Virus record (IMG/VR): IMGVR_UViG_3300042691_052879
Coordinates: 1 to 28,505 of that record
DNA length: 28,505 bases
Source of the DNA: a virus
Reading direction: 5' to 3' (one strand)
Shown: positions 3,467-25,623 of the stretch, one piece after another
Numbering within the stretch: position 1 is the first letter of the stretch
How the letters are laid out: the number at the start of each line of letters is the position of its first letter
Position numbers and translations under genes: made by a program
The notes under the pieces: model-generated
What the model was told of the DNA's origin: nothing
Databases searched by the model: none
The model's input: the letters and a program-made list of their open reading frames with translations, nothing else

Positions 3467-3870
3467 AGCACTATCAGAAAATTTCAGTGAAACGCTCTCC
3501 CCTTCATGGGTGGGGCGTTTTTGCTGATGATGACATTTCTGCTAACGAAATGATCGAAGTTGCTCCCGGCGTAATTCTAGAGCAAAGCTTTCTGAATGCA
3601 TGTCATTACGTTGCAAAAGCAGAAGGACTAAAGCCTGAAGAGATCATGCTCGACCAATATGGAATTGGCTGGACTGATGGTAGAGCTTTTTTTCCTCTTG
3701 GATGGGTAGGGCTTTACAATCATTCAGACGACCCTTCTGCAGAATTTGTATACGTTAGTGACGAACTTGTTGGAATTCGATCTACAAAATCTATACAGTC
3801 AGGAGAGGAAATCACCGTCAGCTATGGGGATCACTGGTGGAAGCAGAAGGACTACCTCCAAAAGCTCTGA
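3454..3870 (+). CDS. SET-domain protein (putative protein-lysine methyltransferase)
   Basis: This compact 138-residue SET domain shows the N-terminal SPLHGWGVFA (residues 15-24), matching the GxG-F/A part of the S-adenosylmethionine site; the pseudoknot element LYNHSDDPSA (88-97, NHS core); and the C-terminal SGEEITVSYG (116-125) followed by paired tryptophans. SET enzymes transfer methyl groups from S-adenosylmethionine to lysine side chains. The usual post-SET cysteines are absent. The target here is unknown, with host chromatin-like proteins, translation factors or virion proteins as possibilities. It overlaps the upstream small gene by 13 bp and its 3' end overlaps phoH on the opposite strand by 53 bp. 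The lone opposite orientation suggests a later-acquired cassette. Confidence 0.85.
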   Translation: MQEVKHYQKISVKRSPLHGWGVFADDDISANEMIEVAPGVILEQSFLNACHYVAKAEGLKPEEIMLDQYGIGWTDGRAFFPLGWVGLYNHSDDPSAEFVYVSDELVGIRSTKSIQSGEEITVSYGDHWWKQKDYLQKL

Positions 3871-4594: not shown

Positions 4595-5149
4595 CTATAC
4601 TTTTACGGTTTCAACTTTTACATCTTTTTCTTTTTCCAATTCTTTTGCGTGATCAAGATTTTCTTGATTGTCATCGAAAAAGATAAAGTCGTGGTATCCT
4701 TGAGCTATGAGGTCCCTCAAAGCTTCTGATTTTTTTTGTGCAATACTTCCTTTAAAATTGTACTTGGGATCGTTTACCGCAATTACAAGATCGGGGTGAA
4801 TGTCTATTCCATTTTCCAAAAAGAAAGTCCTAATCATATTGGAAGATGACCGTGCAGTTAGAATACAAACGTGTACACCTCTTCTGTAGAAATCATTGAG
4901 TTTTTCTAAAACGTGAGTGATGAATTCGGCATTTCTAAGTATGTCCGCGCTTTCAAATTCAGTAAAAGACAGCGAATGCTTTTTAGGATCGTGCTTGAAA
5001 AAGTTAAACTCTGCTGGCGTAAGACTTTTAACAACCTTTCCGCGACGGTCTAGCACCTGTATTTTTGCTGATGATACAACTAGCGTATCATCCAAATCAA
5101 AAACGGCAAGCCTTCCTAGAGAAGTACCTTTTATTGAAGCTTCATTCAT
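4595..5149 (-). CDS. HAD-superfamily phosphatase
   Basis: Haloacid-dehalogenase motifs are present in order: FDLDDTL (motif I, nucleophile Asp18 and acid Asp20), CILTARS (motif II, Thr98), a lysine pair at 139-140 (motif III) and IFFDDN (motif IV, Asp159-Asp160). Such 180-200-residue phage HAD proteins resemble the 3'-phosphatase part of polynucleotide kinases or small nucleotidases, so a nucleic-acid-end or nucleotide phosphatase is the best guess; the substrate is not determined. The gene sits 16 bp after the 2822-residue baseplate gene and abuts phoH. The gap upstream carries GAATAAATA, five bases before the ATG. No Shine-Dalgarno sequence is seen. Confidence 0.88.
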   Translation of the reverse strand: MNEASIKGTSLGRLAVFDLDDTLVVSSAKIQVLDRRGKVVKSLTPAEFNFFKHDPKKHSLSFTEFESADILRNAEFITHVLEKLNDFYRRGVHVCILTARSSSNMIRTFFLENGIDIHPDLVIAVNDPKYNFKGSIAQKKSEALRDLIAQGYHDFIFFDDNQENLDHAKELEKEKDVKVETVKV

Positions 5150-11100: not shown

Positions 11101-13634
11101 ATTCCTGAGTAATAGAAGTTATTAACGTAATCTGAACTAGCTACGTAAGTTTGCGAAAATTTCTGAGGCAATGAATAATAACGGCTTCCTTGAGTAAGCC
11201 CTGTCAGGATTTGTACAGAAGTAACAACTCCGCCAGGAGCAATTGCTCCAACGCGCACTCTAATAGGAGTAGAAAAGACGCCTCCACCAAGAGTGACAAT
11301 ATCACCGACTGTGTAGTTGATTCCGCCATCAGAATTTGCTGATAGAAAGTAGTTATTAGGACTGCCTTTTACATAGGCTACGCCATTCCATAATTTTGAC
11401 GGAGACGCGTTTCCTGAAGTAGAACCAACAGTGAGCGTAGGAATTCTATTTACCGTTGCCAGAGGCAAAGTCATATTCACACCTTTAATGGTGTATGTTG
11501 CAAAATACGACTTTAAGGTATCTGTACCAGGAGAATAAGAATACGCTACCTCATTAGTATCATATCTACGAGCATCTTCAATAGGCAAACGTGTATCATT
11601 TACAACAAAATCAACGTTTCTTGTGAGTTCAACCACAAATTGTTCTACTCTATCATTCCAGGTGTTAGCGGCGTATCTTTCAAAATAGACGCCTTCACCT
11701 ACAATATCTACAATTTTTGCATTTAACGGTATGAAGCTACCTTCCAAATATTGTTTTAATGCAAACAATTTAATAAGAACTTCTTGATTGCTAAACTGAA
11801 ATGCATCCACTGTTTGCGGAACGCCATTTTCATCTAATACCCCGCTTTCTTTATTTAAGTCATAAAATAAGCCAAACTTATTAGTCTTTTTGTAGACTTT
11901 GCTCGGCATCATTTCAATACCGTAAGGAACTCCTCGTGCTTCTAACTGAAAAGGTATTTGAATTTGCTTGTACTTTCCATAATATGCGTCATTCTTATTG
12001 ACATTTAGCCAGTATTCCTTGATGCGAATGTCATAGTATCCAAACCAATTGATGATGTTTACAAGTCCTTTATACGATCCAAGATAAGGCCAAATTTGAT
12101 CGCCTTGCAAAAGCATTTCTTTTCTCTTCTCATTAAGAAGAAGATAGTTAGGAAGGTCTTCAAAAACGTCGCTATCACGGAGAATCAATTCTTGATTCTC
12201 GGTTACTGATCTTCCAAAGTTTTCTAATAGCTTTTGCAGTCTTTCGTCTTCGCCTTGCGCTTCTCCTCTAAGAGAAATCTGTGAAATTAACCTAGGCGCA
12301 TACGGAAATGTAATGTCTTCTAAAACAAAAACTCTTATATATGATCCTTCGGTTCCTGCAGAAAAACCTAGGTGAAAATGCATAAGACGCTCTTCCCAAT
12401 TCTCAAATACTTGTCTAAATTGATACCCAGGTACTGACGCGTCTATGAAATTTCCTACGGCTGGATCGCCAGTTAGCCCTGCTGTAAAACTATCCGGACT
12501 TGTGAGTTCTGACGCATTTATTGGGTCGTGAACAAAAGATTGAACTTTTGTAATCACGGGAAACTCTTCTTCGTACTTCACAGTAAACATAAAGATCTCT
12601 TCTTCAAGACCTACCATGCGTCCTCGCCATTTAGGAGCTGCACTAAAGAATGTAGTGGCTGCAGCAGCCGTACTGCCGATTGTAGGTATGGCACTAGTAG
12701 TAGAAAAATAGACTTTTCTATCAGAAACTTGCACAACCTCATAAGTTCCAGCGATTGGCAAAGAGAGCGAATTGTCATATACTCTAATAGACATGCCAGC
12801 AATAAATCCATGAGGCACATATGATTCAAGGGCAATAGACATGCCATTTTGAGTTGGCAGCGAATCTATTGTAATTTGTGTTGCGCTATCAACAGAAACA
12901 ATTTTTGTGCCAGCGGGTATTCCCGTGCCTTCAATAATCATTCCAGCTTTTAGATTTGCTGTGCTGGACATACTAAATATCTTTCCTTCCCCCGCAAAAA
13001 AGTTTCCCGTAACGGATTCAATGTACACTGTCACAGATCCTACTCCAGTGCTTGAAGTAATTGCTGAATTTGCAACATCATTTGAATAAAAGCTCACTGC
13101 ATTAGCAGGCCCTTCCTCTGCTCTTGGAAAGCTATAACCATAATTAAGTTGATTGAAAGGCGTTTGCGGAGTAGCTACTACTTGCTCAAGTACAAAAATA
13201 TCTTGGTTCTCGATCAAACCAGTGGATACCATGTCAAAATACATTTCGCCAAGCCATGTAACATTCGGATACGCAAATGTCTCATTCCCAGGCTTCCAAT
13301 CGGAATTTCCTGTAAATGATAGACCGTTAAAACCTATGATTGTTCCTGTTAGCGGATCGACTACGAGATCTGCAGGATTGCTGTCCCAAACATATCCCGT
13401 GAGTAGATTTTCAAATCGCAGATAAGCGTTTCCCGTTATATCGTAGTTATATCCGCCATTTGCAATTTCTAGTGCAGCAATGTTTCCGTCTGGATTTGTG
13501 TACACATTAAATGTTGCGCCATATCCACCAGAATTGGTAGGATCGACTACAGTTACCCTTGTACCAACTTGCGGAAGAAGGTTGATTTCATTTCCCTTCT
13601 TGTCAAAGAAATTTAGCCTATTTGTTAAAAGCAT
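5166..13634 (-). CDS. Giant multidomain baseplate/tail protein, 2822 aa
   Basis: This single frame of 8.5 kb follows gp25, gp6 and a small gene, the slot where T4 carries the wedge protein gp7 (about 1030 residues), so a peripheral baseplate or fibre-attachment role is likely. Visible parts: an N-terminal beta-rich region; a helical tail-protein-like stretch around residues 470-700 (RLQKLLENFG, PYLGSYKGLVNIINWFGYYD, GEGVYFERY); several Gly-Tyr motifs of the form GxGYxxxPxV (about 60, 870, 985, 1112); tryptophan-rich TWDE modules (about 943, 1130, 1245-1275, 2100, 2730); a PKD-like segment near 1170-1200; six propeller-like repeats at about 1620-1900; and a C-terminal PKD-like domain ending at 2822. 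The start overlaps the previous stop (TAATG). No signal peptide or lytic motif is evident. The homology to gp7 is positional, not proven. Confidence 0.85.
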   Translation of the reverse strand: MLLTNRLNFFDKKGNEINLLPQVGTRVTVVDPTNSGGYGATFNVYTNPDGNIAALEIANGGYNYDITGNAYLRFENLLTGYVWDSNPADLVVDPLTGTIIGFNGLSFTGNSDWKPGNETFAYPNVTWLGEMYFDMVSTGLIENQDIFVLEQVVATPQTPFNQLNYGYSFPRAEEGPANAVSFYSNDVANSAITSSTGVGSVTVYIESVTGNFFAGEGKIFSMSSTANLKAGMIIEGTGIPAGTKIVSVDSATQITIDSLPTQNGMSIALESYVPHGFIAGMSIRVYDNSLSLPIAGTYEVVQVSDRKVYFSTTSAIPTIGSTAAAATTFFSAAPKWRGRMVGLEEEIFMFTVKYEEEFPVITKVQSFVHDPINASELTSPDSFTAGLTGDPAVGNFIDASVPGYQFRQVFENWEERLMHFHLGFSAGTEGSYIRVFVLEDITFPYAPRLISQISLRGEAQGEDERLQKLLENFGRSVTENQELILRDSDVFEDLPNYLLLNEKRKEMLLQGDQIWPYLGSYKGLVNIINWFGYYDIRIKEYWLNVNKNDAYYGKYKQIQIPFQLEARGVPYGIEMMPSKVYKKTNKFGLFYDLNKESGVLDENGVPQTVDAFQFSNQEVLIKLFALKQYLEGSFIPLNAKIVDIVGEGVYFERYAANTWNDRVEQFVVELTRNVDFVVNDTRLPIEDARRYDTNEVAYSYSPGTDTLKSYFATYTIKGVNMTLPLATVNRIPTLTVGSTSGNASPSKLWNGVAYVKGSPNNYFLSANSDGGINYTVGDIVTLGGGVFSTPIRVRVGAIAPGGVVTSVQILTGLTQGSRYYSLPQKFSQTYVASSDYVNNFYYSGIGQGLKLDAGDIQYELEGVTTTTQGKGYPILDPPVFIVTDPLTGSTIPSSYNFNLSTVQGPYVGYFDEGKQLEALTNEPNAPVAAFLELEAIGFDVTWDEMAFTWENLWGATEATLKAYIDPLPAGTGAIEAIEVVEPGSGYSRTPSVEFIGGDGINATATAFMRDGKVKIIEAEVTSIAVLSPTSSRVFFATPQTASPLQIEILPTMFVTATDTGGNSLEKPCVVITYDTVGGSYMDITTAFNSVPGNFNLQIHAVQITSSGSAYVSNPEVKLVGGQTSTLYTWDEIGRGNFYDMEWLVTSEPGTKNFTYTSGQKSIDELINHTVLLPYKGFYKVEMIVYDTDNNWVNEIKRNFVEVYMPEALSSFATRYIGPSSTPGVSDGSESESNIAQLEKNCVDTWDEAFYMWDEYWGRWINPIKTWTTWDDCDILWDTLNVTPLSQENNWNYPNVPEYEVYRVSAYDNLVGDVSNLTTITPGSTYQLEVELADVQNRPTLNAAIPEWIYIRRGDNIFQVEAVNSGTVTGNTFSVTITTTNPLPDSFLSSPTTWEVLREVANTVVVQDDLYTPENGKTLVPGQFITLKGNNNTPLNDSRWNLAMPPLTWGIPVYAKTVDGVSTLDSGIQIDSEYASNPFMTKEWVNGQIYNFRNQSYENGYLFLSPLPNANTSAVNIQVLESFTEDNWGNRVMFYINNTNTSEYATTADILREVRPGFTEFDLLIVEPDQTFWWWFDPTDTEFPPPLVSPVFPNTSSGAYRPSPTGGPGYIYGVYSSPSTTDAYYIDIEAATQNNVSIPANVKKLWYNRGLDRFYFPEGQGIGNEIYVLDPNTNTSSLFTTLSSPTSSNANMTFVDDVGYNMIYCATTDEFVYCLDAVTGFEIARIDTTPNTSGSGITYDPIRKHVWALAGDNSPLSIIDADPNSSTWNTIIATVTLPDVALGIRYVSQTDTMIAWRSSAATTNYYTIECVAPYTVTTNNIPFTWDTVRGIAYHEADGHWWIGRTNGNIDIFSFFDLSTPVHTISVPTPGLFRFIVYNPVTNSMWVCREVGGVDSVYEVKGLIYDTGTTLYEQHFRTIDAYEDTSNQGTPWSIWSEASSSIYCVEAVSLEGKKYNELETVLQQIDNVTVFGWIEYKYNSFPTRTYSNSSATNLNLVMDFNTRPVLGAFEDSIIFPAEKTGRGWFYDHGISEGEFSQEVVNVGEFMENPGWTVVTVKDPNNELYLCDSTFMEKARDFDEDYADTHLGVKLAWNEVENLDWDAMCSQTWTTLDWPYTLGTNFRIALDPDANTEISLQLNELSASVFDLSAVDANRPALASYMTSLLNNNFYDYLGNTPKNDNPGLSKFNYSLVSRDPTATTVERVFTWGNPTDFNIYGDTTGIQVFSIVHGPGIQPGYTVDSVLPGSVFILPSVAGSNLGSPGPTSYVPWIPTCSFHCSTVANSKALTNIVGYDSNLPIAGYLYDPVAETVIGEFGPGKGVIQESSGFVTYIESDTPMLATEDNRLLYAFPYQSNIVQFIDPAVSSTEDLYYIAASAKSPGTDTLGYLRGDYDLFIQNHYWIDSDLAVGLPYDAFSHTFPLGNYYNWVQDPDIFYGGGLENSLLQFASPYRNIQSYIFNGEEGSREYTAVNGGWYPAITWGTNQTPDGLLFDTPVPGTYPNLYKPWAQVEVVDETGIVIAVNGTALIFNSFFDGQAVLYTAGSPYDLFTNANFAANHSDWNEYPVPVVINVTDPFQAEHILSFNAVVVDPENGIIGRDAVYFNGTTTLDGSLIFDPGVYQITDITQPGVPYFTSSLMPSPIQSLKPGMVLMQLGGGPLTDPYKTRITKVDQENSLIEIDIPQDSSTSGNFVAYTPLDLGLKTNQTVTNSIWSSTKQWDSMRLQYEASMNSAYTWEDTTISYSEKRIPAGSSVLFSSDASNIAGKTKFLWNLYHDGTKVCSIEDPNFLWTFLETGLYDLELQIVDTNGNVQRRYNQDYLEVFKAEH
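7935..8775 (-). other. Beta-propeller-like repeat region inside the giant baseplate protein
   Basis: Residues about 1620-1900 of the 2822-residue protein contain six successive segments of about 42-45 residues with the same plan: a hydrophobic strand with a Y/V-x-Asp/Asn-pro turn, an aromatic-rich strand (HVWALAGDN, HWWIGRTNG, SMWVCREVG), then an I-D/F-D type strand (IYVLDPNTN, VYCLDAVTG, LSIIDADPN). This is the pattern of YVTN/NHL/WD-like propeller blades. Six visible blades fit a six- or seven-bladed propeller. In a baseplate protein it could bind a receptor or dock fibres. The fold is inferred from pattern only. Confidence 0.6.
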
Positions 13635-13906
13635 TAAGAGTGTACTTTATAGTTTTTATCTACAGTGTAGTTGAAAGCCTTCTTAATGCTTCCTATGTAA
13701 TTGATTAGATAAACTAACATTCCTTGAAATTGCAAAAATGTATATTCTTTTCGTGAATCTACAAACATATAATTTGACATAGTCTTCTCAAACAGACGGT
13801 TTTCATAGTCAAACCCCTGATTCTTCAATACATCTTGCTGATGTATCATCCAGTTGTAATAGCTAGGTCTTCCTAAATGTGGACCTGGTTTAGGTGTTTC
13901 GGCCAT
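13634..13906 (-). CDS. Small unknown protein between gp6 and the giant baseplate protein, 90 aa
   Basis: This 90-residue protein begins MAETPKPGPHLGRPSYYNW and contains several aromatic residues and a likely helical C-terminal half (LQFQGMLVYLINYIGSIKKA). Its ATG overlaps the stop of the gp6-like gene (TAATG) and its own stop overlaps the start of the 2822-residue gene in the same way, so all three are translationally coupled and probably assemble into the same wedge. I do not recognise the family; no catalytic motif is visible. A small baseplate connector or assembly chaperone is a guess from position. Confidence 0.75.
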   Translation of the reverse strand: MAETPKPGPHLGRPSYYNWMIHQQDVLKNQGFDYENRLFEKTMSNYMFVDSRKEYTFLQFQGMLVYLINYIGSIKKAFNYTVDKNYKVHS

Positions 13907-15609
13907 TATACAGATTTTTTGATATTGTTAACCTCAATTCTATGAAGCTCCATGTTCAAAGATCTTGGAGTATCTTTCTTGGTGAAAGTTATATTTAGAG
14001 TAGAAGGCTTTCCGGCATCTATTCCTGTATTGAAGTATTCTCCATAACGGTTGACCCATCCACCACGAATAATTACAAGTTCTCCTTTTTCCATGATGAT
14101 ATCGCCGAATTCATCTAAACCAATATCCTTTTTTGTTGCATCATTTTTTGGATTCTTTTTGAACTGCTCGTTTTTCTCAGAAACAAAATAGACGTTGACC
14201 GAATCTACGCCTTCAATAGATTCAATTACTGCTATGAGGTCGGATTTTGGAATGCGGTCTCTTCTGCGATTATTAAGGAAATAATCAGAGCACTTTGAAA
14301 TAATTTGTTGACGAATGATGTCTTTATTAAATCCTTCAAAAGCAGTCACATTCACCATCATAACATATCTGCTAATAATAGGATCCACAATTTTATTCAC
14401 AACCGTCATGATCTTTTGTCCGCTCTTTTCAATTAACTCATAAACTTTCGTCTTCTCCTGCTCAGTCAATCTAAATAAACTGATAGGAACCGAAAAGTAG
14501 TCGTCGGAAGCTTTTTTCCGCTTATTTACATCGGGTATGAGAAACAAATAGACAGTATTGTCATCCTCAATGTTATCGTCCCCAAGAGTGTTGAACGCAT
14601 CAACAACAGAAAAGAAGTTAAACTTTTGAAAGAAGTAGACGTAGTTATCAGTGTTAGCTAGCACATAAGAACGACTTGTTTTAGGTGCAAGTAATTTTGT
14701 TAAAGTGAGAGGCTCTGCATCCGATCCAAAGGAAAACGCATTTACCATCGCAATATCCAAAATTTTGTTGAGATCTACATCCTGACCAGCAATGTCATAT
14801 CCTTCCTGTAAAAATTTGAAAGGCGGCGCATTATCAGTGATGATATTTCCAGCGTTTCCGGAAGTTGTCATGTATTCAACCCTAATCACAGCACCAAGAG
14901 GCGGAACCGCTCCAAAGTACGTGTTTCCAAAAAATACGTCAACTCCACCGCTAATACCTGTTTTAACAATGCAAGCCTTCTCATCATAACTTACGTCATA
15001 CAAAGAATCATATTTTTTCCACTCTTCATTATTGACGTAAACCTTTACAAAAAAGTTGTCAATGATGTAGTTTTTCTTTGGAGAAGTAGTGAATGACTGT
15101 AGATCGTTTCCTGTGCCGGTGAAAGATTGTACTTCTATAACTCCTTGATGAGCAAATACTTCAATCGAATTTCTGGCGCTCAGATCTAATGTGACCGCCT
15201 CTTGATCCAAAACAAGTGTATAAGTAAGACCGTTGAGTTTACACTGTAGAGTGGTGAAGTTTGGTATCACCACAGTGTTTCCATACATGTCAACCTTTTG
15301 ACCATTGTATGTTAATTTAAGAGTACCTGTGGCCGATATTGCTCGAGTTGGATCGTGACCAGCTATTCTAGCAAGACCTCGTATAGAATTAGGACGCTGA
15401 GCAGTATATATGTTAAGCTCGTTGATGCTATCTTCTATGTAATAGAACATCAATCGACCTAAATCAAGAATAACGGTTAACAGCTGTCCATAAGGGCTAG
15501 CTGGAGAAAAAATTTGGTCAGATTGTTCGTACTTTGATTCCAGGAAATTCTTCACATCAAAGTACATTTGATTGAAGGTTATCCTGGTAAGTTTAAAGAT
15601 CTCTAGCAT
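13906..15609 (-). CDS. Baseplate wedge protein, gp6-like
   Basis: The 567-residue protein has the N-terminal pattern of T4 gp6/P2 gpJ-type wedge proteins: a helical opening (NFLESKYEQSDQIFSPASPYGQLL), then LYTAQRP-like sequence (NIYTAQRPNSIRGLARIAGH) and a long beta-rich central part with FTGTGNDLQSFTTS and VRVEYMTTSGNAGNI. Helical sequence around 390-480 includes the RRRDRIPKSDLIAVIESIEGV segment region typical of the gpJ core. T4 gp6 is 660 residues. Gp6 dimers form the inner ring that joins the wedges of the baseplate. It follows gp25 by 16 bp, as expected for partners of the same wedge, and is coupled to the following 90-residue gene. Confidence in the gp6 assignment is good, supported by both order and sequence. 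Confidence 0.88.
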   Translation of the reverse strand: MLEIFKLTRITFNQMYFDVKNFLESKYEQSDQIFSPASPYGQLLTVILDLGRLMFYYIEDSINELNIYTAQRPNSIRGLARIAGHDPTRAISATGTLKLTYNGQKVDMYGNTVVIPNFTTLQCKLNGLTYTLVLDQEAVTLDLSARNSIEVFAHQGVIEVQSFTGTGNDLQSFTTSPKKNYIIDNFFVKVYVNNEEWKKYDSLYDVSYDEKACIVKTGISGGVDVFFGNTYFGAVPPLGAVIRVEYMTTSGNAGNIITDNAPPFKFLQEGYDIAGQDVDLNKILDIAMVNAFSFGSDAEPLTLTKLLAPKTSRSYVLANTDNYVYFFQKFNFFSVVDAFNTLGDDNIEDDNTVYLFLIPDVNKRKKASDDYFSVPISLFRLTEQEKTKVYELIEKSGQKIMTVVNKIVDPIISRYVMMVNVTAFEGFNKDIIRQQIISKCSDYFLNNRRRDRIPKSDLIAVIESIEGVDSVNVYFVSEKNEQFKKNPKNDATKKDIGLDEFGDIIMEKGELVIIRGGWVNRYGEYFNTGIDAGKPSTLNITFTKKDTPRSLNMELHRIEVNNIKKSV

Positions 15610-15625
15610 TGAATGACATTATATG

Positions 15626-15988
15626 TTATACGGCTACAAGCCCAAAAGCCTTAGTACCGTTAACATATATATCAATGTAAGCAACATCCCTGGCAGTTCC
15701 AGGTACAAAATTGACGTTCAATTTAAGATCAAAAGAGGCAGCCTCGGGCACATACGCAGCAAGCTGTTGGTCAAACGCCTTTCTTAGTTCGTTTGAGCTG
15801 AATCCCAATTCAAATAGAAGATCTTCCAAACTTATGCCAAACTGCGGTTCTCCTAGAATCTCACCCTTTCTTGTAAACATAATCATCTTGATTTTCTGTA
15901 GGAGAATTCTTACAGAATCGCGCTCTTCAATTTTGAATGCGTCATAACCAGGTTCGTTCTGATTGATTATGTATAGGTCTTTGATCAT
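15626..15988 (-). CDS. Baseplate wedge protein gp25 (GPW/gp25 family)
   Basis: This 120-residue protein matches the small wedge protein gp25 (132 residues in T4), which triggers sheath contraction at the baseplate rim. It shows the family core: a helix ahead of KIKMIMFTRKGEILGEPQFG (residues 33-52), then LEDLLFELGFSS, with a C-terminal beta section (VNFVPGTARDVAYIDIYVNG). The GEPQFG element is where the family has its conserved GE-P-FG/EPR-like turn. Placed directly ahead of gp6 as in T4-type phages. The leader has no Shine-Dalgarno sequence; the ATG lies 6 bp after the stop of the 243-residue gene. Confidence 0.93.
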   Translation of the reverse strand: MIKDLYIINQNEPGYDAFKIEERDSVRILLQKIKMIMFTRKGEILGEPQFGISLEDLLFELGFSSNELRKAFDQQLAAYVPEAASFDLKLNVNFVPGTARDVAYIDIYVNGTKAFGLVAV

Positions 15989-15994
15989 CTTTAA

Positions 15995-16726
15995 TTAGTG
16001 GAATATGTAGAACCAGTCTGGGCTGTTTTCGTCGTCAATCCTTTGTTTGATTTGCTCAAGCTCCTCTTTTCCTTCTTCTCTAATGCTGTCAGCATTTACT
16101 TGCACTCCGCCTGGAAGGTTGAACGAAAAGAACCCTAAGATTCTACCTAAAGAGATTTTAGCCTGCGCTGTCACCCATCTCTGGAAGAACCAATCATCAT
16201 AAAGCTTGCTTTCTTCAATTTTAACATACGTTTGAACAGCGCAGTTTCTCTTGGGATTTCTACCTATGATTTTAAGTCTTTTAGTATTTCGATTGAAGTC
16301 GTAAGACACCCTTTCCAAGATAAAAGCTTGTGTTAAATCCCAATAAGAGTATTGAGCAGCTCGGAGAACCAAGTCATCCGACGCAAAAGGCGAAAGAAAT
16401 AGCTCAGCAGCCAGCAAGCGGTTGTCGTAAAAGTCCGCATCAATAGTTCCAAGTCGGCCTGCGCCATTGATTTCCCTGATTTCGTAAACAGAAACTACAC
16501 AATCTGGAAGCAGTAAAGATCGAGTCTTTTTGAACTCGTCTTTCATAAACCAATCTTTCGTTATTACATAGTATTGAGTTTCAACGGCTGGTCCGTAATT
16601 GACATAGAACCAATTAAGAGCCTGATCTATGATCCTCTCCATTTCTCTCTCAGGAACCGAATACGGAAGCGAACAAGATCCAGTGATCTCGTTGTTTACC
16701 ATTTCAATAAGCTCTGCTCTGGTCAT
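15995..16726 (-). CDS. Unknown virion-associated protein upstream of gp25, 243 aa
   Basis: The N-terminal 40 residues form a likely helical module (RAELIEMVNNEITG, EREMERIIDQALNWFYVNYG), followed by mixed beta sequence and a helical segment ending in DDENSPDWFYIFH. Aromatic content is high. Nothing suggests an enzyme, a signal peptide or a membrane segment. It sits between a small capsid-targeted-like protein and gp25, so a neck, connector or baseplate-wedge role is likely from context. I considered gp53 and gp13/gp14-type neck proteins but see no decisive motif. A 20-bp gap separates it from the previous gene. Confidence 0.75.
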   Translation of the reverse strand: MTRAELIEMVNNEITGSCSLPYSVPEREMERIIDQALNWFYVNYGPAVETQYYVITKDWFMKDEFKKTRSLLLPDCVVSVYEIREINGAGRLGTIDADFYDNRLLAAELFLSPFASDDLVLRAAQYSYWDLTQAFILERVSYDFNRNTKRLKIIGRNPKRNCAVQTYVKIEESKLYDDWFFQRWVTAQAKISLGRILGFFSFNLPGGVQVNADSIREEGKEELEQIKQRIDDENSPDWFYIFH

Positions 16727-16746: not shown

Positions 16747-17094
16747 TTATGCAAAATCGGGCAAGAACCCGATGCTGTTCATACAATCTTGATTAAAGTG
16801 CGCTTGCTGTGAACGCGGATATTTTGAACTCCAAACAATTGTATCATCCTTAGCAATATCTAAATAATAAGTGCTTCCACCAATACCAGCTGTGACAACC
16901 CATTCAGTTCCGCCATTGCGGTCATTGGCTACATATACATCCACCTCATCAAATCGGTTATCGTCATCTAGCACTTCTTCGCTTCTTTCAGTGTCTCTTT
17001 CAAATGAGAAACCGCCAAGACGAAGAGCTTTTTCGATGTCAAATGGAAGATGCGACTCGTTGACAAACTCCGAAAAATTTTTTAGATGCTTCAT
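16747..17094 (-). CDS. Small protein with T4-like capsid-targeting N-terminus, 115 aa
   Basis: The N-terminus MKHLKNFSEFVNES closely resembles the capsid-targeting sequence of T4 internal head proteins (MKTYQEFIAEA), which sends proteins into the prohead before the phage protease cleaves after a hydrophobic-x-Glu. Here the matching site would be V-N-E at residues 11-13. The remaining about 100 residues are acidic with a beta-rich end (EVDVYVANDRNGGTEWVVT, STYYLDI). The gene starts inside the last codon of the amidoligase-like gene (ATGA overlap) with a weak AAGGA upstream, so the two are co-translated. A role as an internal head protein, perhaps injected into the host, is inferred. No family is recognised for the mature part. 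Confidence 0.75.
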   Translation of the reverse strand: MKHLKNFSEFVNESHLPFDIEKALRLGGFSFERDTERSEEVLDDDNRFDEVDVYVANDRNGGTEWVVTAGIGGSTYYLDIAKDDTIVWSSKYPRSQQAHFNQDCMNSIGFLPDFA

Positions 17095-18488
17095 TTTTTA
17101 TCCTTCTTTTTATCTTTTGAATTTTCATTATAGCTGCCCGATGATTCTGCAGGTTCTTTCTCCTCAACAACCATAGTTTCTTTAGAAACTTTTGCAAGCT
17201 TTCCAACTTCACCATTTCGTATCACTCCTCGTTCAACTTGACAGTTAATGATGTTTGACTTGTTTTCAATAAAGCAGTCGTTGCAGGTATTTTCAACATG
17301 CAGCGGAGATTCTACTATTTTTGAAAAATCAACAGTATTTCCTTTAGGAAAAACACTAAATAAAATGCGGCTATTCTTTATCTTGCAACCATAGAATGAA
17401 CATCTCTCAAGCACTCCTTCAATTTCACAGTCAATCATCTCTAAATCAGAAAGCCTGCAATTCTTTAGCTTAGTGCTCTTTAGTTGAAAGCGGCCCGCCT
17501 CGGTATCAAGGTTGAACTCACCCTTGGTCATTCCACCGGTTACGATGACTTCAAATAACTTATCTCGCAAATTTACCCAAACGCCTTCAAGAACATCATC
17601 GTTGTCATTCATATCAAGAGTTACCTTGATATCCGGGAATTCTTTTTTGAAATCCACGTATCTTACAAAGGCTTGAGAAATTTTGTTCTGCTTTTCAATC
17701 ATCTTCTTAAATTCACGGACTTCAGATTTTGTATAATCCATAAAGTTTAGAACTGAATGCATATGAGTTACGAAATAAGACAACAGATCCAAAATCTTTT
17801 TTGTTTTCTTTTCGTAATCCGCACCGCCTATGTATCGGTACTCCAAGTAATTTTTCTCAAGCTTAAGAAAGTTGACTCCATAGTACTTTTCAAAAGGAGT
17901 TTGAAAAGCGTTTCTGCTGTACACCGTGCTATCTTTATTTACAAAGAAAGCAGATTTGTTAGGCAGTATTTCTTTGATACTTCTGGCGTAAACCGAATCC
18001 CTTCTGCTAGGAAAAGATGCATACACATTTTCCTCATCAAATGACAGAATGAACTTTAGAACATTCATGTTTTTGATGTCAAAAATTGTAGGAAGCTCTA
18101 CGTCATCAATTGAAACGTTCATATGAATTGAGCATCTTTCGGTAGTGTACCCGTTATTGCTAATCCATTCTAAGACTTTGATGATTACGTTCCTGGCCTC
18201 CGCGTACTTCATAGGGCCAGTGACCAATTCGCACATAGTCTTTCCGCCAGAGTAATCTGGCTCAAGTTTAAAAATATCACTTGTTGGTGCTATTGGCGAG
18301 TGATATAGCGGCTTCATCTCTTTTATATCGGAAAGAGCCATAGGAACTACAACTCTTTTCCCGATATATTTTGACAATGACCGCGCTGTCTCTACGTGAC
18401 CTTTCAAATTAGAGTAGAACTCGAATTCTACTCCAATCTTTCCTGCTTCTAAAATTTCAGCAGGGCTATAGTTCTTCTTAATTTTCAT
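17091..18488 (-). CDS. Amidoligase-like (COOH-NH2 ligase) protein with beta-helix-like C-terminus
   Basis: The N-terminal about 260 residues look like the amidoligase/glutamate-cysteine-ligase-like fold: GVEFEF (Glu21, Glu23), FKLEPDYSGG (Glu76, Asp78) leading to CELVTGPM (Glu87), the metal/substrate motif CSIHMNV (His122, Asn124) and YLEYRYIGG (Glu216, Arg218). Family members use ATP to form amide or peptide bonds, often adding amino acids to a peptide or protein; the acceptor here is unknown. From about 330 the sequence turns into short repeats (FQLKSTKLKNCRLSDLEMID region, CSFYGCKIKNSRIL) like pentapeptide or right-handed beta-helix repeats, and it ends in a lysine-rich tail. It overlaps the next gene by ATGA and follows the S1 gene. 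The family call is strong by motif order; the function is not proven. Confidence 0.78.
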   Translation of the reverse strand: MKIKKNYSPAEILEAGKIGVEFEFYSNLKGHVETARSLSKYIGKRVVVPMALSDIKEMKPLYHSPIAPTSDIFKLEPDYSGGKTMCELVTGPMKYAEARNVIIKVLEWISNNGYTTERCSIHMNVSIDDVELPTIFDIKNMNVLKFILSFDEENVYASFPSRRDSVYARSIKEILPNKSAFFVNKDSTVYSRNAFQTPFEKYYGVNFLKLEKNYLEYRYIGGADYEKKTKKILDLLSYFVTHMHSVLNFMDYTKSEVREFKKMIEKQNKISQAFVRYVDFKKEFPDIKVTLDMNDNDDVLEGVWVNLRDKLFEVIVTGGMTKGEFNLDTEAGRFQLKSTKLKNCRLSDLEMIDCEIEGVLERCSFYGCKIKNSRILFSVFPKGNTVDFSKIVESPLHVENTCNDCFIENKSNIINCQVERGVIRNGEVGKLAKVSKETMVVEEKEPAESSGSYNENSKDKKKDKK

Positions 18489-18504
18489 CTAAACAGCTTT
18501 TTTA

Positions 18505-18512
18505 TATTTATC
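18505..18512 (-). promoter_or_regulatory. Candidate late-promoter element GATAAATA
   Basis: The minus strand reads GATAAATA 16 bases before the amidoligase-like ATG, seven of eight matching T4 late TATAAATA. It lies in the 42-bp gap after the S1 gene, which also holds a weak 6-bp inverted repeat at 18520-18536 (GAGTAA/TTACTC) without a U-tract. Confidence 0.35.
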
Positions 18513-18530
18513 TCAATGTGAGTAACTTAA

Positions 18531-19745
18531 TTACTCCTCGTTAGGCAACGTTAAAAAGATTTTATCATTGTGAACGCGTTCAACCGATACCATTACGTGA
18601 TCCCCTACAGCAAAGTTTTTCTTCTTTACCTTAATTTCTTTCTTGGAGATCAATCCCACGATATCCTTTTGAAGTTTTACCAGAGTTCCAAATGGTTGTA
18701 TGGAAACAACCTCACCACCTGTGATGATTCCAAGATTCTTTTCCTTGAATTCTTCAAGTTCTTTCATACGAATGCTCGGGTCTTCATCGGTAAGAATGAT
18801 CTTCTTATCTGGTGTAATTTCTTTAATCCAGAAGTGAACGGTGTCTCCTGCCGAGAACTTTCCGTTTTTGAAGTCTTCGCGCATATCAGGAGTCATTTTG
18901 CTAGTGTGTATCAAACCTGTGAAAATTTCATTGAATTCCACAAATACACCAAATTTAGCAGTGCCTGTAACCACTCCAGAATACTTTTCTTCCAAGCTAA
19001 GGCTGTCAATTTTGGAAGGCAATACATGCGAAAGATACTTTTTATGGCTGAATACAAATGTACCAGCATCCTTCAAGTAATCCTCTACCATTACATAAAT
19101 TTCTTTACCGAGCATAGATTCGAAGTCTCTAACTATATTTGCTGCCGCCAGCGATCCTGGTAAGAATCCTTCTACGCCAGCCACATTTACCAAGAAGCCT
19201 CCACCGTTTCTGCTAAGAACTTTTGCGGTGTACGCACTTGTTGGTTTTTCTATCTGATGGAAGAACTCTGTGCGAATGCTTTGCGAATGTCCTTTACTTA
19301 GAGAAGCTATAGTGTATGGCTTGATGGTTTCAATTACCACCTTTTTTCCATCCTCTCCAATGAATCCCGAGAACGCCCCTTCTGTGTTTTTCATCCATTC
19401 CACAAAAGTTTCTTGGTTCATGCCGATAGTTTTGAAATACGGCTTCTCTTTTTCTAATTGAATGACGGCGTCAATCATACCAGAAAGAGTTACTACCATT
19501 TCTTTGTCATTTATGCTGACGACAGAAGTGATTGAGTGATATTCCCCTACTCTTGGTTCTTTTATTCCGCCAGAAACAGATTTTTCATAGCGGAGAAACA
19601 TTTCTTCTGCTCCGCTGTCATGTCTCCAAACTTTCACACCATATTTTTTCAAAATGGTAGGGTTTGGGATTCTTCGTGCTTGACGGTCTTCTGCTTCAAA
19701 AGCCGCCCAGTCAAAGTCGATTGTTGTGTTATTTTTGATTTGCAT
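18531..19745 (-). CDS. S1-domain RNA-binding protein, ribosomal protein S1-like
   Basis: The 404-residue protein has three S1/OB-fold repeats, about 170-238 (AYTAKVLSRNGGGFLVNV), 254-320 (YSGVVTGTAKFGVFVEFNEIFTGLIH) and 338-400 (GIITGGEVVSIQPFGTLVKL), plus a degenerate one near 66-105. The GVFVEF and GLIHTSK signatures are those of bacterial ribosomal protein S1 (four to six repeats, about 400-560 residues). S1 binds A/U-rich leaders and brings mRNA to the 30S subunit. A phage copy could redirect translation to phage mRNAs or protect RNA; this is inference. The minus-strand start is preceded by GATATATAG at 19773-19765, and TATAAATA overlaps the start. It opens the non-structural trio within the late operon. 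Confidence 0.92.
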   Translation of the reverse strand: MQIKNNTTIDFDWAAFEAEDRQARRIPNPTILKKYGVKVWRHDSGAEEMFLRYEKSVSGGIKEPRVGEYHSITSVVSINDKEMVVTLSGMIDAVIQLEKEKPYFKTIGMNQETFVEWMKNTEGAFSGFIGEDGKKVVIETIKPYTIASLSKGHSQSIRTEFFHQIEKPTSAYTAKVLSRNGGGFLVNVAGVEGFLPGSLAAANIVRDFESMLGKEIYVMVEDYLKDAGTFVFSHKKYLSHVLPSKIDSLSLEEKYSGVVTGTAKFGVFVEFNEIFTGLIHTSKMTPDMREDFKNGKFSAGDTVHFWIKEITPDKKIILTDEDPSIRMKELEEFKEKNLGIITGGEVVSIQPFGTLVKLQKDIVGLISKKEIKVKKKNFAVGDHVMVSVERVHNDKIFLTLPNEE

Positions 19746-19795: not shown

Positions 19796-22700
19796 TTATG
19801 GAACTGAGACGTATGGAATTACATATGCCGATCCCAGTCCACCTTTTCTTTGAGCTGTGCCTATTAGTTGGTCTAGCCACACCAAGAACGGAATGTTTTT
19901 GATGCTCAGAGACTCCCAAGACGGCAACCTGTCTACCGGTTTAGTTGGATGCAATTTAGTAAACGCTACTCTGGAAGGCGTAAAACTGCAAGCAAGAAGA
20001 GTTACAATGGCTGGCAAATTATTAAAAAGTATCGGAAGAACGGATTCAATGATAGGCTGCACTACTGGCTTGACCACAAATTCACCTACATCATAAAAAG
20101 GTCCGTCATTCCCAGGAAGAGAAATCTTTGGTGGGAATTGAAAGAGCTCAATTATGCTCAGAAAATTGCCTTTTAGAGAATTGACCAGATCTATGATGTT
20201 AGAAATTGTATCTAGTACTGGATAAAGTGTGGATTCCAAAAAGCCATTGATGAAATTCTTGATATCGCTTCCTTTAATGTCAGAAAGAGAAACTCCAAAC
20301 ATTGCTTTGATGATCATTGATACTGCGATGATCTTTGCAGCGTTTCCTTCCTGGATTGCTTCATACACTTTTCCCATTATTAAGCCAATGAGTCCTTCAA
20401 TTGCTATCTGCGCAGCCTCTTTTAAGAGTGTTTTAATCAGAGACGGTGGAATGACAACCTGGGTTGGTAAGCCAACCTTTGGAAGGCGCACCTTAAACTT
20501 TGTAGGTATTTGCTTCACCATGTCAATTGTCTGCTTAAACATATTGTCGTTGAGACCTGCGGGAACTGACAGGTCAGGAATAGCGTCAAGGAGCCCGTTA
20601 ATAGTTCCATAGAACATCGGAGTTGCTCTTGGAAGTGCCTTTGATAGGTCAAGTTCAAAAGATACAAGTTCTGCAATACGTTCTGCAGAAAGCGCGTCTA
20701 TAATAGATGGAGCAGCTTTGATGGCAGCTATGAGAAGATACACGTAAGGCGGTACCGCTGGCAGCGTTATGTTTGTGTAACATGGAAATGGAAGAGGCGG
20801 AACATCTAGCGCTTTTGCAACAAAGCCTAAGATTTCTGGAGTTATTTCTTTAGCAACTTCTCCTAAAACCTCTTTAGCAGCTTTTTTGATTGCGTTGACA
20901 CGTTCTATTACTTTTTCTTCTGCTGTTATATTCACGTCCAGAGAAAGACGATTTTCCAAATCCGATATCTCTTGATCCAGATCTCTAAAAAACTCTTTTA
21001 CTGATGGTTTATCAATTGCTTGTGTAACGCGCTCTTTGATTGTTTTCTTAACATCGAGAACTTTAACAGCAGCACCAATATCCTGGAGGACTGTCTTTTT
21101 CAGTTCCGCCGGAGCGGCTAGAGCTGTCTCTAGCAGTTTTTGGAAGTTGTCAATAATTTCGCCAGGCCCCAAAGTAGGCATCATCAATTTCTTATCGTCC
21201 TTTGGAAATTTGATCACGGGTATTTTCAGTTCATCGATAGCGGCGTTCACTATGCTAAACACTTCAGTTAGACCTCTCTCAATTTGCTGAGCATCGGGTG
21301 GTACAAGCTCAAACGCTTCTTTAATCTTTCTCCGCCTCTCGATAGCCTCGGGTGAGTTTCCTCCAAGTGAAGGCGGGTCGTTAATTTCTAATTGATCAAA
21401 AGAAGACTTGATGTTTTCTTTGAGCTTGTCTATGATATTTTTTCCAGAATCTGGATTGTCAACGTCATTACGAGTGCTACCTGCTAAAAGTTTTCCTAGT
21501 GGCGAGCTTAGATTGATCTTAATTGTTCCAGGAGGAAGAATCAAATCTAGCAGGGCTTTGAGTTCAATGTTGGCCGTTGCGGGGCTGACTACGGTTGGGT
21601 GCGGTATTGAACATGGACCAAACAAGGATACCATAAATGTAGCCTCGCCTTTTTCATCAATGAGCATCACAAACGGAGATGGCACAATTCCAGCCAATGC
21701 AATCCAGACCACGATAGTTCCTATGGGTGTTGTGACAGTGATGATGTGTTTCCACACATATGGAAGAGGTATGCAAAGAATAGGGCTCGGTATGCCCATT
21801 GCTAGAGAAGGAAGCGGAGGAATTGGCGGAGGAATCGGTATTTGTATAGCCACTGGGTAATACCTAAAGAGTCGCTGGCTCATATTAGGCGGGTCAAGCT
21901 CTATGACTGGAAGTAGACTCACCTTTTGCATAATCTTGGTGTATTCCTTCCAATAACAGTTCTTTGTGTAACTTGGACATTTTCCGCTTGGCGGTCTCTG
22001 TCCTACTGGATCTGATCCAAGCAGCTGCTTGCACTGTGCTTCCAGACTTTGATTTTGTGAGCCTCCTTCATCAACACTTGTGAGATTCCGTTTTGCTTCT
22101 TCTTCTATGTCTTTCTCTTTTTGATCAACACATGCCTGTGCATTCTGCATCGTAATTTCCAAGTCGATTAACTCCTGCAGTATGAGCTCAGTATATTTTT
22201 CACAGACAAAAGATTTTCTTCGAAAGTCGTTGATTGAATTTATTGCAAAGATATTTCTCGGGCCATCTAGAAAGTTTCTATTTTGCAATTCTTCAAAGAA
22301 AACTTTTGCTGCCTCTTTTTGAGCTGCATCATTCAAAACATTATTGACATAGTTGCTGTACGCTGTAGATGCTTCAATGTTCAAAGCCGCCTGCTCAACC
22401 CGTATACGCAGGTTTGCGTCCATATTTTCCAAGAAAGCAGTAGCGACTGCGTCATCTACTTCCAGCCCTTCAGCAGCTGCCGGACTTTCTATTATTACAT
22501 CTTCCTCTAGACCGTTCTTTACTATTTTTTGAATTTTTTCACCTATTAAATTTCCTCTGTCATCGTATTGAGGAGGCTGCTGATTGTAACCCTGCTCCTG
22601 GTATGTAAAAAAAGCGTTAATTCTTTGCGCCGAGTAGAATTTATTCCAAACTCCTGTTTCAAATAGGCCAGTGCGATTCTGAATAATGTTGCCTTCTGAC

Positions 22701-24859
22701 GTGTAATACGGAAGTGATATAGGCACTATGTAAGGAGTAAGAGGCGTGGTTACTCCATCTACAGGAATTTGCAATGTTCTTGAAGAGGTTGTTGAAGCCT
22801 GTGTCCAGAGTTCTTTGCATCGATCAGCAATGTTTCCTTTTACCATCACAGTCCAAAATAGATTCTGTGAAGAAACTAAAGACGCATAATTAGGCGGCCA
22901 CCATATGTTTGTGAGCGCATTGGAGGCAGGAGGGAATCCTACAGTATTTGTAAGAGGGTTGTTAGATGACTGCAGGCTTTGTCTAATGCTACTCAGGTCT
23001 TGATTTCCTATTTGTCCTAAAATTTCTACAAATTCATTGAAAGAATCCCGAGTCTCTTCCAATATGGATAACTGATAGTTTCTTTCCTCGGCGCTTAGAA
23101 TTCCATTTGAAAACGCAGCAATATAGTTGGGATCAATAGATTCGCCGTTGGCGCCTGGGGTATACAAAGTCTCTTCTATTAAGGTCTCGAATTTCTCCCG
23201 GTTCGTTGTTATTTCTCTCTCGCTAATTTGAGTAAGCGCAAGTTGCTTAAGAGCAGAATCTCTCTGTATTAAAATGCTTTGTAGTTCTCCATAATAGTTT
23301 TCTAAATTGTCTCGTAATAGATCAAAATACCTGGTAGTGATCCTGTGCTGGAACGTGTGTTCAAAGAACCCCCACCAGCGATCTGACGCATCACTTTTGG
23401 TCTTTGCACACGACTGCATCTCATTGGTAATTTTCTGTAGGCCTTCCATGAATTTTTCCAACTCGCCAATTGCCTCGGCTTGGTTTGGAAGAGAAACGTC
23501 AGGGATATTTAGAGTAGAACCTGCATCGGATTGAAGTAAACCAGAGTCTATAGGGTTTTTAACAAAATCAATTGCAATAAACCCATCCTGATCCGGAGCA
23601 TCGCCAATATCATTGAATTTTGCAGTTAGCGCAGCATCCTCTGCGAGCGGAGCAAGATCACCTTTTTCTCTTGCAAATGCAGAAACAACGTCACCGCTAC
23701 CCGCAATCTTAATGTCCACTGACACAGTTTTTGTCTCAGGACCAGATTGTTCTCCAGGATCTTTGACAAGCACTCTTCCAGGCGCTTTCCAGTTTTTACA
23801 ATTTTGATCATGGACTTTTTGAATTTCCTCAGGCCTATATGGCGCTGGAGATGGTACTCGTTCAGCACATTTGCCTATGACTTTGCCAATATCGGAAGGG
23901 ACCGCCTTTTCTGGTATAATTACCAGATCAGGATCTCCATTTGCAGGAACGGAAGAAAGCTTTTCTATCTCTTTTACGCTCTCCACGGCTTTTACCATAT
24001 CAGCCATTTCTTTTGCAACATCCACGTCTTTCTGTATGTTCACTTTAAGAAGCTCAGCAGTTTCAAAGAAATTCTCTTTATCTGTTGCCAGCTCGAGCAT
24101 TTCTTTTACATATGAGTTTTCAGGTGATGCAAATTGCTCTTTGGCGAGAGCCTTTAGCTCATCCAGGCCTTCTGGTCCAGAAGGTGTGAGCGTTTTTTTG
24201 TATGTGGATCCTTTTAATCTATCAAGAGCTTCTTCGTTGGTTTTTACTGAAAATGCAGGCGCCCATGCAACATCTCCACCGCCTATTTTGAACAGCAGAC
24301 CTAGCGAAACTGGACCAAACTTCATTCCAATAGTTGCCTCAATAGTCTTTGATATAATTGAGATCTTTAAGTTTTGAATTGGTCCCATGTTGATGCTATC
24401 GAAGTCTACTAATTTTGAAACATCGATTCCTGGATGGTCAGTGATCTCGGTGACTTTGAGCCCGCCTACTTCTTTATTAGGATCATCAATTTTTAGGAGT
24501 TCAAAATTCAGGTCTCCGTCTGGCAGACTAAAAACCTCGTCGACTATTTTTCTTAGAGATGCGAGGCCTCCATTTGCATCAACGCTACCAACAAATCTTT
24601 CGTCTTCGGGAATTGCCTCATACGGTCGGTACTCGCTGCCGTCGGCATTTATTTCTACCTTATTGTAGTCATCTGCGCTAACCGTCCGTGTAAATTGATC
24701 CACGACTTGATCAAATTTCTTTAGTATTTGTTCTTTCTCGGACTCTATTCCCGTGCCACTTGGATCCAGAATTTTTCTAATTTCCTCTAAGATCTGCTTT
24801 GCCTCGGGTGATTTAGATTCGCAGCATTCACAATTTATACCATGTATCTCTTTTTTCAT
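19796..24859 (-). CDS. Very large baseplate/hub-associated structural protein, 1687 aa
   Basis: The frame is translationally coupled to the gp5-like gene (TAATG overlap). The N-terminus MKKEIHGINCECCESKSPEA has a CxCC cluster (Cys10, 12, 13) and is followed by long helical, acidic stretches. Around residues 990-1080 comes proline-rich and very hydrophobic sequence (IPPPIPPLPSLAMGIPSPIL, GTIVVWIALAGIVPSPFVML), and near 1360-1390 another (AVPPYVYLLIAAIKAAPSII). C-terminal helices (AAQIAIEGLIGLIMGKVYEA) and the end GSAYVIPYVSVP follow. Large proteins of this kind sit beside the hub gene in some marine T4-type phages. Tape-measure, hub or DNA-ejection roles are all possible; no catalytic motif is visible. 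The hydrophobic stretches could insert in membrane during infection. Confidence 0.8.
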   Translation of the reverse strand: MKKEIHGINCECCESKSPEAKQILEEIRKILDPSGTGIESEKEQILKKFDQVVDQFTRTVSADDYNKVEINADGSEYRPYEAIPEDERFVGSVDANGGLASLRKIVDEVFSLPDGDLNFELLKIDDPNKEVGGLKVTEITDHPGIDVSKLVDFDSINMGPIQNLKISIISKTIEATIGMKFGPVSLGLLFKIGGGDVAWAPAFSVKTNEEALDRLKGSTYKKTLTPSGPEGLDELKALAKEQFASPENSYVKEMLELATDKENFFETAELLKVNIQKDVDVAKEMADMVKAVESVKEIEKLSSVPANGDPDLVIIPEKAVPSDIGKVIGKCAERVPSPAPYRPEEIQKVHDQNCKNWKAPGRVLVKDPGEQSGPETKTVSVDIKIAGSGDVVSAFAREKGDLAPLAEDAALTAKFNDIGDAPDQDGFIAIDFVKNPIDSGLLQSDAGSTLNIPDVSLPNQAEAIGELEKFMEGLQKITNEMQSCAKTKSDASDRWWGFFEHTFQHRITTRYFDLLRDNLENYYGELQSILIQRDSALKQLALTQISEREITTNREKFETLIEETLYTPGANGESIDPNYIAAFSNGILSAEERNYQLSILEETRDSFNEFVEILGQIGNQDLSSIRQSLQSSNNPLTNTVGFPPASNALTNIWWPPNYASLVSSQNLFWTVMVKGNIADRCKELWTQASTTSSRTLQIPVDGVTTPLTPYIVPISLPYYTSEGNIIQNRTGLFETGVWNKFYSAQRINAFFTYQEQGYNQQPPQYDDRGNLIGEKIQKIVKNGLEEDVIIESPAAAEGLEVDDAVATAFLENMDANLRIRVEQAALNIEASTAYSNYVNNVLNDAAQKEAAKVFFEELQNRNFLDGPRNIFAINSINDFRRKSFVCEKYTELILQELIDLEITMQNAQACVDQKEKDIEEEAKRNLTSVDEGGSQNQSLEAQCKQLLGSDPVGQRPPSGKCPSYTKNCYWKEYTKIMQKVSLLPVIELDPPNMSQRLFRYYPVAIQIPIPPPIPPLPSLAMGIPSPILCIPLPYVWKHIITVTTPIGTIVVWIALAGIVPSPFVMLIDEKGEATFMVSLFGPCSIPHPTVVSPATANIELKALLDLILPPGTIKINLSSPLGKLLAGSTRNDVDNPDSGKNIIDKLKENIKSSFDQLEINDPPSLGGNSPEAIERRRKIKEAFELVPPDAQQIERGLTEVFSIVNAAIDELKIPVIKFPKDDKKLMMPTLGPGEIIDNFQKLLETALAAPAELKKTVLQDIGAAVKVLDVKKTIKERVTQAIDKPSVKEFFRDLDQEISDLENRLSLDVNITAEEKVIERVNAIKKAAKEVLGEVAKEITPEILGFVAKALDVPPLPFPCYTNITLPAVPPYVYLLIAAIKAAPSIIDALSAERIAELVSFELDLSKALPRATPMFYGTINGLLDAIPDLSVPAGLNDNMFKQTIDMVKQIPTKFKVRLPKVGLPTQVVIPPSLIKTLLKEAAQIAIEGLIGLIMGKVYEAIQEGNAAKIIAVSMIIKAMFGVSLSDIKGSDIKNFINGFLESTLYPVLDTISNIIDLVNSLKGNFLSIIELFQFPPKISLPGNDGPFYDVGEFVVKPVVQPIIESVLPILFNNLPAIVTLLACSFTPSRVAFTKLHPTKPVDRLPSWESLSIKNIPFLVWLDQLIGTAQRKGGLGSAYVIPYVSVP

Positions 24860-25623
24860 TATTGCGAAACTTTAACGTTCTTGGAAGTTGAAAGCTGTTC
24901 AAATGAAGAAGCCGCGCCTACCATTACGCCAGGAGTAGACGGGAGTTTTGCGTCAACTGCTCCCGCCATCATTTTAAGAAATGCCCAGAGAGGTTCGGCG
25001 AGAACTGCCGAATACATTGGAGCGGGCCCAAGCTTTGTAGTCGCAGATCCGTTCATATTCACCTCGGTAGACTCTGCCTTGATTAGCGAATTTGAAGTGA
25101 TATTGATAGTACTGTTTGCCGTGATATTGATGGTAGTGCCGACCAATTCTATGATGCTTTGACTGTCTTTGTGTTCTATGGTTATGCTGCTATCCGGATT
25201 GATAGTAATATGAGAATCTTTGTGGAAGATTTCCATACCGTTCCCCGGAGTATAGTAGACTTTCATCTCTTCGTCTTCATCATAAGCAAGAACGTGACTG
25301 TTTAGGTATGTGTCACTAATATCAGATTGCATTGCTCGGTTAATAGTCTGAATTCCATAGTACTCCGGAGAGTATAAATTTCCTTCAGAAAATTGAACTC
25401 TTACAATTGCACCTATTTTAGGTATTGATAAGCTTCCAAATCCCCCAGCCCCACCTGCAAAAACACTATTGGTTACTGGAAATGCCCAAGGAACACTTTC
25501 ATCGGGTATATCATCAAAAAGGCTAAAAACTTTTATTCTGCATCGACCTAGTTTTTCTGGATCGTCATTATCAACAACAGGCCCTAACCAAATTCTTTGT
25601 GCTAAATCTTTTTGTGTTGCCAT
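24859..25623 (-). CDS. Baseplate hub/tail spike, gp5-like (OB-fold and beta-helix, no lysozyme)
   Basis: Residues about 11-95 form the OB-fold N-domain of gp5/VgrG-type spikes (IWLGPVVDNDDPEKLGRCRI, IPKIGAIVRVQFSEGN, YYGIQTI). From about 118 to 200 comes a stretch of short repeats (SITIEHKDSQ, INITANSTINITSNS) typical of the triple-stranded beta-helix that pierces the outer membrane. T4 gp5 is 575 residues with a lysozyme domain between these parts; at 254 residues that domain is absent here. The protein should trimerise at the tip of the tail tube. It lies after the tube-cap-like gene and overlaps the 1687-residue gene. The leader has ATAAAT-rich sequence and no Shine-Dalgarno sequence. Confidence 0.9.
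   Translation of the reverse strand: MATQKDLAQRIWLGPVVDNDDPEKLGRCRIKVFSLFDDIPDESVPWAFPVTNSVFAGGAGGFGSLSIPKIGAIVRVQFSEGNLYSPEYYGIQTINRAMQSDISDTYLNSHVLAYDEDEEMKVYYTPGNGMEIFHKDSHITINPDSSITIEHKDSQSIIELVGTTINITANSTINITSNSLIKAESTEVNMNGSATTKLGPAPMYSAVLAEPLWAFLKMMAGAVDAKLPSTPGVMVGAASSFEQLSTSKNVKVSQ

Follow-up and report, generated by a model that had tools for sequence, protein, structure and literature searches.

The amidoligase RimK glutamylates ribosomal protein S6. Phages encode ligases of another fold, the Amidoligase_2 (PF12224) enzymes of LUZ24-like, phiEco32 and OM43 phages, which have the motifs and fold of COOH-NH2 ligases of the glutamine synthetase (GS) type. Huge phages encode rpS1-like proteins with bS1-like repeats, and phage rpS1 has been linked with missing Shine-Dalgarno (SD) motifs in these phages (Al-Shayeb et al. 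2020, PMC7162821). In T4, the first 10 residues of internal protein IPIII suffice to send it to the head, and cleavage by gp21 occurs after [L/I]-x-E (PMC9026906); IPI, IPII and IPIII share N-termini of 10–13 residues that contain aromatic residues and end in [LIV]-x-E, and their mature parts are variable.

The locus described here resembles each of these systems and departs from each. As with RimK and bS6, an amidoligase is encoded together with a ribosomal-type protein, although RimK is an ATP-grasp enzyme whereas the ligase here has a GS fold, and the acidic tail substrate is not seen. The ligase resembles the Amidoligase_2 phage enzymes in motifs and fold, but has a C-terminal pentapeptide beta-helix, lies in a late virion operon without a glutamine amidotransferase (GATase) gene and has a sub-threshold Pfam score. 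The S1 protein has bS1-like repeats and comes from phages without SD motifs, but unlike huge-phage rpS1 (PMC7162821) it is a fixed member of a hub-neck-wedge operon and adjoins the ligase. Small proteins encoded next to the ligase have starts like those of the T4 internal proteins, and related genomes encode a T4-type S77 protease. However, there are far more such cargo genes than in T4 (with as many as 18 arrayed within 18 kb), their slot lies beside the neck gene and next to the ligase, and the packaging and cleavage of their products are putative here. The individual parts are of known kinds. Our literature search, with most subscription journals outside it, returned no description either of the fixed pairing of S1 with a ligase/beta-helix protein in a virion operon or of the cargo slot.

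The window analysed is a 28.5 kb virus record (28,505 nucleotides, IMGVR_UViG_3300042691_052879), a genome fragment. Our best explanation as a whole, which we hold to be somewhat better founded than not, is that the segment comes from a myovirus of a large, largely uncultured lineage and covers part of its late virion operon, in which S1 and the ligase form a core pair, the ligase is a late assembly enzyme and the head cargo is interchangeable.

Organization of the operon

An ORF check of the window confirmed the positions of three minus-strand genes, encoding a 404-aa S1-domain protein with three S1 repeats, related to bS1 (18531–19745), an Amidoligase_2-like ligase (17091–18488) and a 115-aa protein with a capsid-targeting (CTS)-like start (16747–17094). 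The earlier note's family assignments for the three proteins are right, and the overlap it had reported between the enzyme and small-protein genes is present in the sequence as a 4-base ATGA that combines the ligase stop with the 115-aa start.

The same note had placed the three genes between hub and wedge genes on one strand. Their same-strand adjacency stands, as does the upstream hub: immediately upstream of S1 is a weakly conserved 1687-aa virion-operon ORF (19796–24859, minus strand), preceded by a hub/tail-lysozyme-type baseplate gene (24859–25623, minus strand; phrog_37871 and phrog_430, E ~1e-16). The other flank is not a wedge gene. The gene adjoining the 115-aa ORF (15995–16726, minus strand) encodes a gp13-type neck or head-tail adaptor Ad2 protein (phrog_211, E=2.5e-14), and its homologues are annotated as neck protein in Tenacibaculum, Delftia and Synechococcus phages. 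The wedge genes lie beyond it in the conserved block, gp25-like (15626–15988) and gp6-like (13906–15609; phrog_219, E=1e-27), both on the minus strand. Downstream of these is a 2822-aa ORF (5166–13634), and at the far end of the same-strand series are a PhoH-like ATPase gene and a polynucleotide-kinase-like gene (3818–5149).

S1 and the ligase as core genes

A profile scan of viral contigs gave at least 509 ligase relatives, and 80 loci were examined. About 68 distinct loci (27–100% identity) share the arrangement hub–S1–ligase–gp13-type neck–gp25–gp6, with S1 directly preceding the ligase, mostly at a gap of -52 to +134 bp. In the 58 loci that have the full set of five genes (ligase, S1, neck, gp25 and gp6), their pairwise distances correlate at r=0.85–0.98 and mean identities are alike (0.39–0.49), the ligase being conserved like the neck and wedge proteins. 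S1 and the ligase belong to the core of the gene set and are inherited vertically; they are not passengers. Their adjacency, which had been seen in the window, holds across a wide lineage, and S1 is present in each of the six database genomes that gave a strong ligase match.

The two genes are not inseparable, however. Both are kept in four more diverged genomes of 635–735 kb (LR756501, LR756502, LR756504 and LR745206), where they lie tens to hundreds of kb apart, and adjacency alone therefore does not prove a joint function. In Lak phages S1 is present and the ligase was not detected.

The ligase

The ligase of 465 aa consists of a GS-fold domain (residues ~1–320), a pentapeptide-type beta-helix (~323–428) and a Lys-rich disordered tail (444–465). 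PF12224 matches the window protein at E=0.006 with 16.9 bits, below its gathering score of 22, and of 20 family members 14 match it at E<=0.1, the strongest at 8.8e-05; a pentapeptide model matches 15 of 20 relatives, and pentapeptide proteins were the only matches in a profile search against PDB sequences. The AlphaFold model, built from a 39-sequence alignment, has a pLDDT of 87.8. Its top Foldseek matches are glutamine synthetases (E=2.6e-5, probability 1.0), with low TM-scores (~0.25) for a two-domain query of which one domain is aligned. E<=0.001 was reached by 33 PDB matches, and those listed are glutamine synthetases or their homologs. No variation was seen at E21, E23, D78, S80, E87, E216 or R218 among 39 diverse members, 37 of which also keep H122/N124. 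The protein has the GxExE, D-x-S..E, H-x-N and ExR motifs of GS-fold COOH-NH2 ligases, and its invariant core (ExE, D-x-SGG, E87, R218) is made up of metal- and phosphate-site motifs.

It is conceivable that the protein has been repurposed as a neck or baseplate component with an inactive enzyme fold, as it evolves and travels as the neck and wedge genes do, and beta-helices are common in phage tails. The invariance of E21, E23, D78, E87, E216 and R218 speaks against this, and we consider it unlikely. A role at the envelope, in which the ligase changes cell-wall peptides and so blocks superinfection, is suggested in a passage of PMC10580990, citing Iyer 2009, for phage amidoligases paired with glutamine amidotransferases. 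We judge it very unlikely here: known ligases of that sort accompany GATase/ATP-grasp genes among early genes (LUZ24-like UFV-P2), whereas this one is in a virion operon, has no GATase or ATP-grasp partner and has an added beta-helix. We prefer a late assembly enzyme that most likely spends ATP to couple an amino group with a carboxylate of some substrate in virion assembly, and in which the beta-helix is the probable docking domain.

The only cultured relatives of the ligase found are weak, beta-helix-less matches in Atu_ph07 and SCTP-2. The search returned none of the cultured Bacteroidota phages PAU, PTm1, MaF61 and MA9V, which share gp6 and mostly the neck gene with the S1/ligase lineage. 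Cellular or host homologues of the ligase were also considered and rejected; the two genome matches are MAG contigs, and the one examined (L125) has the same phage block. In Salicola phage SCTP-2, gp125 and gp124 (L029:10924–14684) are adjacent overlapping ORFs that both match the ligase family weakly and are possible tandem amidoligases.

The S1 protein and translation

PF00575 matches the S1 protein in three stretches (E=9.5e-22) and bS1 chains in the PDB match it at E=3e-15, as befits tandem S1 domains related to bS1, although NCBIfam bS1 models match it far under their equivalog cut-offs (best 77.9 bits vs 524). Upstream regions are A-rich, and SD-like motifs are about as common in them as after shuffling (7% vs 6%), as against 22% in Atu_ph07 and 40% in SCTP-2. 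The bS1 homology and the missing SD motifs point to a role in translating SD-less mRNA; most likely, S1 would bind A-rich, SD-less phage mRNAs and favour initiation. The earlier suggestion that S1 aids translation or RNA binding thus gains backing from homology and from the missing motifs (PMC7162821), and remains a prediction from sequence. Together with the presence of gp6 relatives in Tenacibaculum, Flavobacterium, Chryseobacterium and Prevotella phages, the translation context suggests Bacteroidota hosts.

One could suppose that the ligase acts in translation too, modifying phage S1 or a host ribosomal protein so that ribosomes are biased to late phage mRNA. The action of RimK on S6 is a precedent, S1 lies immediately upstream of the ligase in the ~68 loci, and the six database genomes with strong ligase matches all have it. 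However, the S1 C-termini end at the last S1 strand with no conserved acidic or modifiable tail, on which ground a RimK-like poly-Glu tail on S1 was rejected; the two genes are unlinked in the four huge genomes, and the Lak phages have S1 with no ligase detected. Such control seems to us distinctly unlikely.

The 115-aa protein and its N-terminus

The 115-aa protein begins with MKHLKNFSEFVNE (residues 1–13; 17056–17094, minus strand), followed by S. This is a T4 CTS-like start, the sole one among ORF starts in the window, with a putative prohead-protease site after VNE; it has V at P3, where other slot members have L or I. In an AF2 model (pLDDT 84) the N-terminus is disordered and the core is a confidently predicted alpha/beta fold. 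A fold search against the PDB and viral models gave no significant match, no family was found in Pfam, PHROGs or NCBIfam, and a single-sequence search returned a near-identical contig only, with nothing significant in the phage collection.

With a regular expression permitting E/D at P1 and L/I/V/M/A at P3, the motif is N-terminal-specific, occurring at 31 of 133 gene starts vs 4 of 365 internal Met; P1 is E in 28 of the 31 and P3 is L/I in 25. As a DNA pattern it has 12–44 matches in most larger related genomes, vs 0–2 for the reversed control, and the head-targeting N-terminus that had been read on the small protein accordingly survives as a putative signal far in excess of that control. A T4-type S77 prohead protease is encoded in 9 of 11 related records, and the 28.5 kb window is a fragment without the S77 gene. 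A motif of 13 residues is weak by itself, so that resemblance and adjacency might both be meaningless, but the reversed-control excess and the strong confinement of CTS insertions by position, described below, already disfavour chance and make it scarcely credible.

The S77 frames in relatives are unusually long (~630–810 aa open frame), and in one relative a CTS-bearing ORF lies just upstream of the S77 gene (L117:1031–1372), recalling the T4 prohead core genes.

A cargo slot beside the neck gene

The earlier note had the three genes as a trio. The conservation check contradicts a fixed trio: the 115-aa family occurs in 7 distinct loci only, and elsewhere the slot is empty or holds unrelated small proteins. 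What survives in general form is a recurrent CTS-tagged cargo gene beside the ligase; the 115-aa protein as fixed partner does not. There are 19 slot families, unlinked by BLAST once the first 16 residues are removed, and most slot proteins begin with the same CTS motif, e.g. MKHIKLYEDYINE, MKYIKKFEDYVAS and MKHIKLFENFLNE.

CTS starts are found in 17 (strict) or 21 (loose) of 29 ORFs inserted between ligase and neck genes, in 7 or 11 of 23 between neck and gp25, in 1 of 4 between the 1687-aa ORF and S1 and in the single gp6–w90 insertion, against 0 of 35 between hub and S1 and 0 of 8 between S1 and ligase; the conserved-block survey gave no insertions in the gp25–gp6 interval. CTS-type cargo genes are almost wholly restricted to the two sides of the neck gene. 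The ligase-neck enrichment in the close clade has a Fisher p of ~9e-16, which is descriptive and overstates independence, the loci being related. In most loci of the close clade the gene after the ligase is of the CTS type, and no gene separates ligase and neck in many loci, including nearly all of those at ~38% identity. In the rearranged genomes LR756502, LR745206 and LR756504 (635–642 kb), S1 has moved away from the ligase and the neck gene is rarely near it, yet a CTS gene still comes right after the ligase. With 31, 37 and 21 genome-wide pattern matches respectively, the chance of this is estimated at ~2e-3, taking about one gene per kb and the first two genomes as one event. ATGA overlaps recur in three loci (L003, L024 and L025). 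The turnover of unrelated cargo families in the slot speaks for repeated insertion, and CTS genes beside the neck gene are swappable, the packaging of their products being putative. The 735 kb genome LR756501 retains ligase and S1 genes and has a weak match for S77 but none for the CTS pattern; it may use a different head-targeting motif.

Some relatives carry arrays of CTS-tagged genes, as in a 202 kb relative (L119/L120) and a 126 kb relative, where the T4-like tag is on 18 of 33 called genes in 18 kb (L123:1–18000); sampled array proteins include two nucleotidyltransferase-like domains and one weak R2K ATP-grasp-like domain. Elsewhere, a CTS-tagged protein resembling biotin-protein-ligase-N/glutamine amidotransferase is encoded between neck and gp25 genes (L007:10705–11418), and a 642 kb phage has, second after the ligase, a gene for a DHH-domain protein whose start is CTS-like (L024:13826–16102).

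The earlier note had also suggested that the ligase modifies the packaged protein. This is weakened for the 115-aa protein itself, and the recurrent adjacency gives mild support to a general form, in which CTS-tagged head proteins, or the 115-aa one, would gain amino acids at a shared site such as the CTS Glu or an exposed carboxylate. The CTS gene after the ligase in most close-clade loci and, despite the departure of S1, in three huge genomes, as well as the recurrent ATGA overlaps, are consistent with it. On the other hand, at ~38% identity most loci lack a cargo gene next to the ligase, LR756501 has a ligase without a CTS of this pattern, cargo genes also lie on the far side of the neck gene, and the slot proteins have only the N-terminus in common. 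We consider ligase-cargo chemistry rather unlikely, and its specific version, covalent modification via the common N-terminal tag by a GS-fold ligase docking through its beta-helix, unrelated inserted proteins included, quite improbable.

We favour reading the 115-aa protein as interchangeable head cargo and not as an obligate ligase partner. Judging by the motif, its N-terminus would direct it into the prohead core; it would be cleaved after VNE13 by a protease of the T4 type and delivered to the next host along with the DNA. Its gene would lie in a permissive slot next to the neck gene and be expressed through read-through and ATGA translational coupling from the ligase gene.

Significance

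These results define a core pair of S1 and a GS-type ligase for a very common, almost uncultured phage lineage, and raise the question of why an amino-acid ligase should be needed in a particle-building operon. The CTS tag offers a simple sequence readout of proteins that are probably carried in the phage head, and the list of proteins bearing it supplies candidates for injected anti-defence and take-over proteins.
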